From assembly GCA_023384575.1 (NCBI GenBank), contig JAHDVP010000021.1:1-64000 (forward strand): 64,000 nt of DNA. The letters run 5' to 3'. Each line of letters starts with the position of its first letter. Positions within the stretch are counted from its first letter, which is position 1. Below are positions 61,123-63,008 of this stretch, in pieces. The position numbers were made by a program, and so were the translations under genes. The notes under the pieces are model-generated. The model was given only the letters and a program-made list of their open reading frames with translations, did no database searches and had not been told where the DNA came from. This stretch comes from Acidobacteriota bacterium (GTDB lineage: Bacteria; Acidobacteriota; Vicinamibacteria; Vicinamibacterales; JAFNAJ01).

Positions 61123-62088
61123 ATGAGTGAGTACCGCGAGTTCGACCTGACGGGCATCGAGACCTACCCTCTCACGTCGCGCCCGAGCAAGGTGCGCGTC
61201 GCCGACTTCGCCACGCCCTTCGTGGCGGGCAGCGGGATCCCCGGCTGGCTGGCGTCGCTGCCGCGCATCCTCGCCGGCGCCGACTTCGTGGCGGCGGTCG
61301 AGGCCATCCGTGCCGCCAGACAGCGCGCGGCCCCAATCGTCTGGGGCATCGGGGGCCATGTCGTGAAGACAGGCCTCGGGCCCGTGCTGACCGACCTGAT
61401 GGCGCGGGGGTTCGTCTCTGCGGTGGCGACCAACGGCGCCGGCGTCATCCACGACTTCGAGATCGCCATCGGCGGCCAGACGTCCGAGGACGTCGATGCC
61501 GCGCTCGGGCCAGGCCAGTTCGGCATGGCGAAGGAAACGGGCGAGGAGTTGAACGCCGCCGTGATCGCGGGCGTCGGGCGTGGCGAGGGGTTCGGCCAGG
61601 CGGTGGGTCGGTGGCTGCTCGACCGACGCCCTCCGTACGCCTCGAGCAGTGTGATGGCCGAAGCCTCCCGTCTCGGCATCCCCGTAACTGTGCACGTTGC
61701 CGTGGGCACCGACATCATCCACATGCATCCCATGGCATCGGGGGCCGCCATCGGGGAGGCCAGCCTGCGCGACTTCCGTTGTTTCACGTCGATCGTCGCG
61801 GGCCTCGCCGGCGGGGTCTATCTCAACTGCGGGTCGGCGGTCGTGCTGCCCGAGGTCTTCCTCAAGGCCGTGGCCCTCGTGCGGAACCGGGGGATCTCGC
61901 TCGAGGGCCTGACGACGGTCTCGCTCGACTTCATCCGCCACTATCGTCCCCAGGTCAACGTGGTCCAGCGTCCGACGCAAGGGATCGGACGCGGAATCAC
62001 CCTCGTGGGGCCTCACGAACTGCTCATCCCCCTGATCGCCGCGGCGCTCGTCGAAGGCCAGGAGGGCGGGGGTGAGACGCAGACCTAA
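61123..62088 (+). CDS. Conserved protein of unknown function
   Basis: A 321-residue soluble protein, 15 bases after queA. It has well-formed conserved-looking blocks: IVWGIGGHVVKTGLGPVL, SAVATNGAGVIHDFEIAIGG, TVHVAVGTDIIHMHPMASG, GVYLNCGSAVVLPEVFLKAV and LTTVSLDFIRHYRPQVNVV. The glycine-rich NGAG and GSAVVLPE segments and paired histidines suggest a nucleotide- or metal-dependent enzyme. Homologues are, to my knowledge, widespread in Acidobacteria and related bacteria, often listed as unknown or loosely as deoxyhypusine-synthase-like. I do not assign a reaction. Confidence 0.7.
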   Translation: MSEYREFDLTGIETYPLTSRPSKVRVADFATPFVAGSGIPGWLASLPRILAGADFVAAVEAIRAARQRAAPIVWGIGGHVVKTGLGPVLTDLMARGFVSAVATNGAGVIHDFEIAIGGQTSEDVDAALGPGQFGMAKETGEELNAAVIAGVGRGEGFGQAVGRWLLDRRPPYASSSVMAEASRLGIPVTVHVAVGTDIIHMHPMASGAAIGEASLRDFRCFTSIVAGLAGGVYLNCGSAVVLPEVFLKAVALVRNRGISLEGLTTVSLDFIRHYRPQVNVVQRPTQGIGRGITLVGPHELLIPLIAAALVEGQEGGGETQT

Positions 62089-62090
62089 CC

Positions 62091-62297
62091 GGATCTCACT
62101 TGTGTTGAGGATGCCGGGCCCTGTGGAGACGACCGACACGCCACGCCTGACCGCCCGAGAAGGCTCAGGGGACCAGCGCGGTTGAGCGCTGGCGACAGGG
62201 CCCCGGCGCGACCCGCGCGGCCAGCGGCCCGCGGCGCCCTCGCAGGGCGGTCCGGTCGTCGGAACCGGGCGTGGCAGCATCAACACAAGTGAGATCC
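62091..62297. repeat. 207-bp element bounded by long inverted repeats
   Basis: GGATCTCACTTGTGTTGA (62091-62108) is repeated exactly in reverse complement at 62280-62297. The similarity continues inward with mismatches for about 34 more bases per side, including GACGACCG. The inside has its own hairpin (CCAGCGC/GCGCTGG at 62173-62192) and no open frame. It starts 2 bases after the preceding stop codon. It may be a MITE-like element or a structured RNA. Confidence 0.75.
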
Positions 62298-62455
62298 ACT
62301 CTAGACCAGCGAAACGGCACCGCACGCCGACGTCGTCATCGCGAACGCCGGCCTTCGACCAACGTGACCAGCGCCGGCACGCGCGCCCTCGAGCCCTGCG
62401 GCGTGCCCGCGATCTGGACCTGCCGGCCCTGCCGGCCCGAACGCCCGCTTGGCGG

Positions 62456-62461
62456 TATGAT
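62456..62461 (+). promoter_or_regulatory. Possible -10 element (TATGAT) of the peroxiredoxin gene
   Basis: TATGAT, preceded by GG, is one mismatch from the TATAAT consensus. It lies 22 bases before the ATG at 62484, with a GGAGG ribosome site between them. No -35 hexamer is evident. Confidence 0.4.
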
Positions 62462-62483
62462 GTCGGGCAGGAGGACTCCCCGC

Positions 62484-63008
62484 ATGCGCAAGTGGTGGAT
62501 GCTGGCCACGCTCGTGGCCGTGGTGGGTGGAATGCCAATCGAGGCCAGTGGACCGAACGTGGGCGACCTCGCGCCCGACTTCACGCTGCAGGCGTCGGAC
62601 GGCAAGACGTACAAGCTGTCCGACTTTCGCGGCAAGCAGGCCGTGGTCGTGGCGTGGTTCCCGAGGGCCTTCACGCAGGGGTGCACGATCGAGTGCAAGT
62701 CGCTCGCGGAGAACGGCCACTTGATCCGCAAGTACGACGTGACCTACTTCATGGCGAGCGTCGATCCCATCGAGGACAACACGAGGTTCGCCGCCGAGCA
62801 GAACGCCGACTTCCCGTTGCTCAGCGACCCGACGAAGGAAGTCGCTGCGGCGTACGGCGTGCTGAGTGAACGCGGGTTCGCCAGCCGCTGGACGTTCTAC
62901 ATCGACAAGGCCGGGCGCATCGCTGCCATCGACAAGGCCGTCAAGCCGGCGACCTCCGCCGAGGACATGGCGGCGAAGCTCGGCGAACTCGGCGTCGCGA
63001 CGCGCTGA
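62484..63008 (+). CDS. Exported peroxiredoxin (AhpC/TSA/BCP-like)
   Basis: A 174-residue thioredoxin-fold protein. An N-terminal export signal covers about 1-22 ([20 protein letters not shown]). The mature part has [20 protein letters not shown] and the peroxidatic site [12 protein letters not shown] (Cys 67). A second cysteine follows four residues on (Cys 71) rather than the five usual in Prx[22 protein letters not shown] is typical of the family. It would reduce peroxides in the periplasm. An upstream ATG at 62457 lacks the good ribosome site that the chosen start has. Confidence 0.9.

Follow-up and report, generated by a model that had tools for sequence, protein, structure and literature searches.

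What usually marks a bacterial MITE is a pair of conserved ends around a middle that is dispensable. Correia/NEMIS of Neisseria, ERIC of the enterobacteria and RUP of pneumococcus, which the available part of PMC2229807 describes as bacterial MITEs with TA ends, are 100–200 bp long, lack a transposase gene, carry terminal inverted repeats, form a long stem-loop as RNA and lie scattered between genes. The window, by which we mean the whole 64,000-nucleotide stretch of acidobacterial DNA analysed here, contains an element that resembles them in these traits. Unlike them, however, it is more strongly conserved in the centre than at the ends, the centre holds several helices in which compensatory changes occur, and genomes with different arm sequences have this centre in common. 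It also resembles the IS630/Tc1-mariner insertion sequences in its TA target, with CTAG preferred (PMC2170065, as far as the available part of that source goes), but no transposase was found with the element's ends, and the ends of the resident IS630 relic differ. We give a probability of roughly 0.7 to the reading that this is a non-autonomous, MITE-like element of about 214 bp, which has come to occupy 41 or more places in its genome by insertion at TA, in most cases the TA of the rare tetranucleotide CTAG.

A sequence-only reading had described a symmetric 207-bp element at 62091–62297, with an 18-base perfect inverted repeat, that begins two bases past a stop codon. The perfect repeat (GGATCTCACTTGTGTTGA) lies at 62091–62108 on the plus strand and, as an exact match, at 62280–62297 on the minus strand; with up to three mismatches allowed, these are its two matches in the whole window, against 0.03 expected by chance. 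Its imperfect continuation is also real, although the arms are somewhat longer than the 52 or so bases proposed: the ungapped inverted repeat 62091–62155/62233–62297 is 74% complementary over 65 nt per arm. The stop codon, TAA at 62086–62088, is where it was said to be and ends a plus-strand gene of 321 amino acids (61123–62088, borderline Pfam match to deoxyhypusine synthase), which lies outside the element and stops at its edge. The symmetric 207 bp stand as a structure but not as the limits of the repeat unit. Since the alignment of full-length copies spans about 62084–62304, we place the unit (plus strand) at about 62088–62301, between a left TA at 62086–62087, the presumed target dinucleotide and at the same time part of the host gene's stop, and a right TA at 62302–62303, within CTAG 62301–62304. 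No target-site duplication had seemed obvious; these flanking TA dinucleotides are the likely one. In young copies the left position reads CTAG, TTAG or CTAA, and in the window copy it is CTAA, which holds the stop of the upstream gene, with CTAG on the right. The element, at about 214 bp, is short, has no coding capacity beyond a 51-codon chance frame and holds no transposase gene. Downstream, and again outside it, lies a gene of the AhpC/TSA family on the plus strand (62484–63008).

Folded as RNA in both directions, as had been suggested, each strand is far more stable than its shuffles: the plus strand reaches −133.9 kcal/mol (z = −6.9) and the minus strand −134.4 kcal/mol (z = −6.3), and none of 200 shuffles was as stable in either case. 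The basal stem pairs 62091–62124, including the inner part up to a GGA loop, with 62264–62297, and both arms carry compensatory changes in 16 copies of the same genome. Fold and alignment then place a symmetric GGA/GGA internal loop at 62125–62127 and 62261–62263, followed by helix P1 (5′ side GACGACCG, 62128–62135, pairing with 62253–62260) and helix P2 (5′ side GACCGCCC, 62149–62156, pairing with 62245–62252). The conserved centre, 150 nt at 62119–62268, was defined from alignment A2 and corresponds to the covariance model R1 described below. A hairpin directly past a stop codon might serve the upstream gene as an intrinsic terminator of unusual size. This is the least probable of the readings considered, close to negligible: there is no T run, terminator-like sites number zero in 61900–62500, as the earlier remark that this was no simple terminator would have it, and other copies face the opposite way.

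The sequence-only reading took a single genomic copy, along with no transcript and no conservation among relatives, to speak against both its ideas, a mobile element of the non-autonomous kind and a large folded RNA. The element is not single-copy: its host genome (G000, 5.89 Mb in 112 contigs) gives 51 blast matches, which merge into at least 41 dispersed places in both orientations; the figure is a lower bound because scoring covered only 40 of the 195 candidates from the first look. A pattern search finds the right-arm motif at six more places, on contigs C2, C4, C9, C22, C30 and C82. Nine of the places sit at breaks of the assembly, at the ends of contigs, and the family accounts for at least nine contigs that end inside a copy. 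Full-length copies are mostly 86–98% identical to the window copy, and they face in both orientations relative to the neighbouring genes. Internal-deletion derivatives with both ends kept also occur (for example L033, L036, L037 and the second copy in L023). Searches of plasmids, phages and viral contigs returned no match to the element.

The ends of these copies point to TA as the target. With blast pieces of E > 1e-12 excluded, and one left end dropped because its flank consists of N, the expected position reads TA in 6/9 left and 5/8 right ends of copies at least 93% identical, and in 7/32 left and 8/24 right ends of all copies, against 64 of 2052 control windows (3%) in flanks 20–60 nt away. 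The usual context of this TA is CTAG, which occurs five times in the 64,000-nt window where base composition predicts 175. Against the reading, both TA are intact in only three of the five full-length copies at least 93% identical (the window copy, L010 and L011); the palindromic 2-bp TA is a candidate target-site duplication. At 9/33 left ends the stop codon of a coding-like frame falls on the element's edge, and 3/24 right ends show such a stop codon on the opposite strand. We read these stops as insertion into a CTAG that happens to be, or to overlap, a stop codon. An ortholog of the upstream gene was present in 18 of the 29 other genomes searched, and in all 18 the element is absent from the 330 bases after its stop, one of them having a 23-base chance match; the element therefore arrived here by insertion, the relatives being too distant (61–73% protein identity) for an exact empty site. 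In relatives' copies no target duplication was readable by eye.

Mobility is thus well supported, by the many copies with defined ends in both orientations, the TA and CTAG at young copies, the absence in 18 relatives and the lack of coding capacity. The element is real and multi-copy, a mobile hairpin that is non-autonomous and confined to one lineage, and its nearest kin by type are the Correia, ERIC and RUP MITEs. Insertion at TA, mostly within CTAG, would spread it, and in GC-rich DNA CTAG may often persist as the TAG stop codon of genes, which would explain why copies sit at gene ends. When co-transcribed with the host gene, a copy would place a very stable hairpin 3′ of it, as in ERIC and Correia elements. 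The hairpin may be required for spread or maintained by it, since the arms vary by lineage yet stay complementary and the centre is constant.

Our best guess for the enzyme is a TA-targeting transposase of the IS630/Tc1-mariner type, which would duplicate TA and act by cut and paste in trans. The preference of IS630 for TA in CTAG is reportedly the subject of Tenzen and Ohtsubo (1991). The target found here fits IS630/Tc1-mariner chemistry. The available part of PMC2170065 describes an IS630-family member, ISY100, that inserts into TA and duplicates it. No transposase gene with matching ends was found in G000. Its one DDE_3 (IS630) gene is a frame-shifted, broken relic (L232:106–1106, contig C54) with CTAG on both sides, and its end sequences differ from those of the element, so that the element shares the target but not the ends of an IS630-derived MITE.

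To follow the element beyond G000, a covariance model, R1, was built on 13 copies from this genome and two from relatives. Of 162 genomes from the order, 11 contain the centre at E ≤ 0.01 (G000, G004, G011, G036, G042, G054, G114, G116, G117, G119 and G127); across 396 genomes drawn from the phylum there were four carriers, all within this order. First-look matches in G003, G005, G022 and others were too short to be counted as copies. An exact-pattern scan of a named genome collection returned nine stretches, of which six are relatives' copies and three (L193, L196 and L198) are apparently fortuitous hits in other DNA. The relatives' copies come from records labelled Vicinamibacteria or Acidobacteria, and one record labelled Acidimicrobiia holds an element that reads identically to the G036 copy; these labels suggest that the order is Vicinamibacterales.

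The arms of the relatives' elements differ in sequence from those in G000, but their pairing is kept. The 60 nt to either side of the centre form at least 20 Watson–Crick pairs with each other in 33 of 35 elements (34 from relatives and one from G000), and in 17 of 25 elements the two arms belonging together pair more strongly than a cutoff of mean minus two standard deviations, taken over 546 arm pairs combined across genomes. Common arms exist within groups of three copies each in G117, G042 and G011. Three copies in G117 (L163, L174 and L183) share a unit of about 204 bp with arms CCGGTTGAGTTGACGATGGCC in two copies and a variant in the third, and CTAG stands beside one end in two of the three. 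In G042, however, five further copies have arms unlike those of its three-copy group, two of the five being alike, and two neighbouring copies in G054 have differing arms. Among the copies of G000, too, the inside is the better conserved part (0.96–0.97, against 0.87–0.88 in the arms), which is the reverse of a classical MITE and counts against the MITE reading. Arms that differ between copies of one genome do not fit a transposase that reads the terminal sequence; rapid coevolution of the arms, or their correction by template switching, would remove the conflict.

A folded single-stranded DNA hairpin moved by a Y1/HUH tyrosine transposase (RAYT or TIRYT), in the manner of REP sequences, would be free of this difficulty, as recognition of the fold would allow free arm sequence. 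REP/REPIN and TIRYT-associated repeats are likewise imperfect palindromes with many intergenic copies, and Y1 transposases exist in the phylum; G000 itself has such a gene. Yet the element measures about 214 bp against 20–40 bp for REP/REPIN, and has TA at both ends, whereas insertion of the IS200/IS605 type is not known to duplicate its target. TIR-flanked relatives of RAYT have been described in Acidobacteria (PMC3733652, available part), but the Y1 gene of G000 has flanking repeats of its own, with a GGGGACAC motif, and no copy of the element beside it. Y1_Tnp genes are not associated with carriers, since they occur in 8/11 of these and in 93/151 non-carriers. We consider this mode of transfer unlikely. 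The Y1/HUH gene itself (L249:4962–5654, contig C28) is bordered by AAAAGGGGACACTCATCTTT and its near complement, borders that fit the GGGGWSAS-type TIR of the TIRtrons described for Acidobacteria in the same part of PMC3733652.

Compensatory change bears on what maintains the fold. Among 16 full copies of G000 (alignment A4, from which the shortened copy in L021 was excluded), 12 of 37 pairs in the arms and P1 change on both sides, in 27 cells against 10.9 when shuffled. Alignment A5 holds 39 centres, and of the 19 R1 matches in G000 its copies were restricted to four chosen loci (five matches), so that relatives stay in the majority. In it, 89.5% of cells pair and 32 of 43 pairs have changes on both sides; 267 cells changed on both sides, against 80.5 when shuffled and at most 75 when slid, and although the fit of A5 to the structure of R1 favours pairing, the slid controls lie far below. 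Both sides change in 8/8 pairs of P1 (helix 2 of A5) and 7/8 pairs of P2 (helix 3), which remain nearly all Watson–Crick across unrelated sequences such as GACCGCGC/GCGCGGTC and GAAAGCGC/GCGCTTTC. With this strong compensatory change and its presence in other genomes of the order, the folded centre is conserved in relatives, a lack of which the sequence-only reading had held to speak against its proposal.

Matched changes could also arise without selection on pairing, if template switching between the arms during replication (quasipalindrome correction) keeps them complementary and the centre alone is selected or inherited. According to the available part of PMC8604942, template switching homogenises inverted-repeat arms, and the matched changes in the arms of the G000 copies, the 12 pairs just given, are without strand bias (G–T 12 against A–C 11 on the plus strand). 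Arm helices 1 and 2 of G000 nonetheless keep 9–11% unpaired cells, and the process leaves the many copies and the conserved centre unexplained; we therefore regard it as an addition to mobility, not a replacement for it, and hold it possible but less than probable as the source of the arm complementarity.

Selection for an RNA would instead favour one strand. A new class of structured non-coding RNA, multiplying in the genome with a conserved centre and a free basal stem, its fold kept by selection for a host or element function, would agree with the presence of the centre across 11 genomes of the order, with the 267 changed cells and with the replacement of a hairpin module by a shorter one in L164, L189 and L176. 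On the plus strand G–T exceeds A–C in the relatives' arms (31 against 18; binomial p = 0.085) and in helices 1, 2, 3 and 6 (25 against 15; p = 0.15), but neither excess is significant and the rows are related. There is none in the arms of the G000 copies or in the 1 × 1 mismatches of the core (11 against 11), and the count for helices 4 and 5 (80 against 17) is biased because these were predicted on the plus strand and contain a constant U–G. The plus strand is the more stable one in just 12/25 elements, and copies face either way relative to the genes around them. The excess in favour of a plus-strand RNA is thus weak. Of the two halves of the initial proposal, the mobile element is the well supported one, and the folded RNA, with its weak strand asymmetry, may or may not apply; the fold may act as DNA or as RNA.

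No Rfam family accounts for such an RNA. At the gathering score nothing in the whole window matched except rRNA at its start; at E ≤ 10, the region 62000–62400 gave two chance-level matches of no use, and the loci of four relatives gave nothing but an unrelated 6S RNA. Overall we think a new RNA class rather unlikely as the explanation. HEARO/OMEGA RNAs are likewise large, structured, mobile and often intergenic, and an OMEGA (IscB/HEARO) guide RNA that stands alone could appear as a multi-copy structured sequence with no adjacent gene. The likeness is a general one, however: HEARO (RF02033) has no match in G000 or in any of the 162 genomes of the order, and the IscB domain RRXRR (PF14239) is absent from G000, near the element as elsewhere, which makes such a guide RNA highly improbable.

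A bolder reading would have the family recognised by its shape and not by its end sequence, as RNA or single-stranded DNA, through a conserved multi-helix centre and a basal stem of 20–50 bp that is free in sequence as long as it pairs. We put this forward tentatively, as less likely than not, for a family that some enzyme would spread in the Vicinamibacteria. None of the literature matches listed, judged mostly from their listings, describes the element. The family inverts the MITE norm, its middle being common across genera and its ends constrained to pair but not in their sequence. Should the fold be what is recognised, by the mobilising enzyme or by the cell, the copies would form a natural series of variants that separates shape from sequence, and what moves such hairpins would become directly testable.

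The centre is itself variable in places. In L164, L189 and L176 the module replaced is the GGTTGA...GACCC hairpin, a short simple hairpin taking its place as if modules were exchangeable. G054 has a second kind of centre within the same stem with its GGA/GGA loop, in at least three copies (L115:5214–5378, L159:4855–5019 and L160). In the same genome a 6S RNA (RF00013, 72.1 bits; L091:540–726, minus strand) lies slightly downstream of two adjacent elements.
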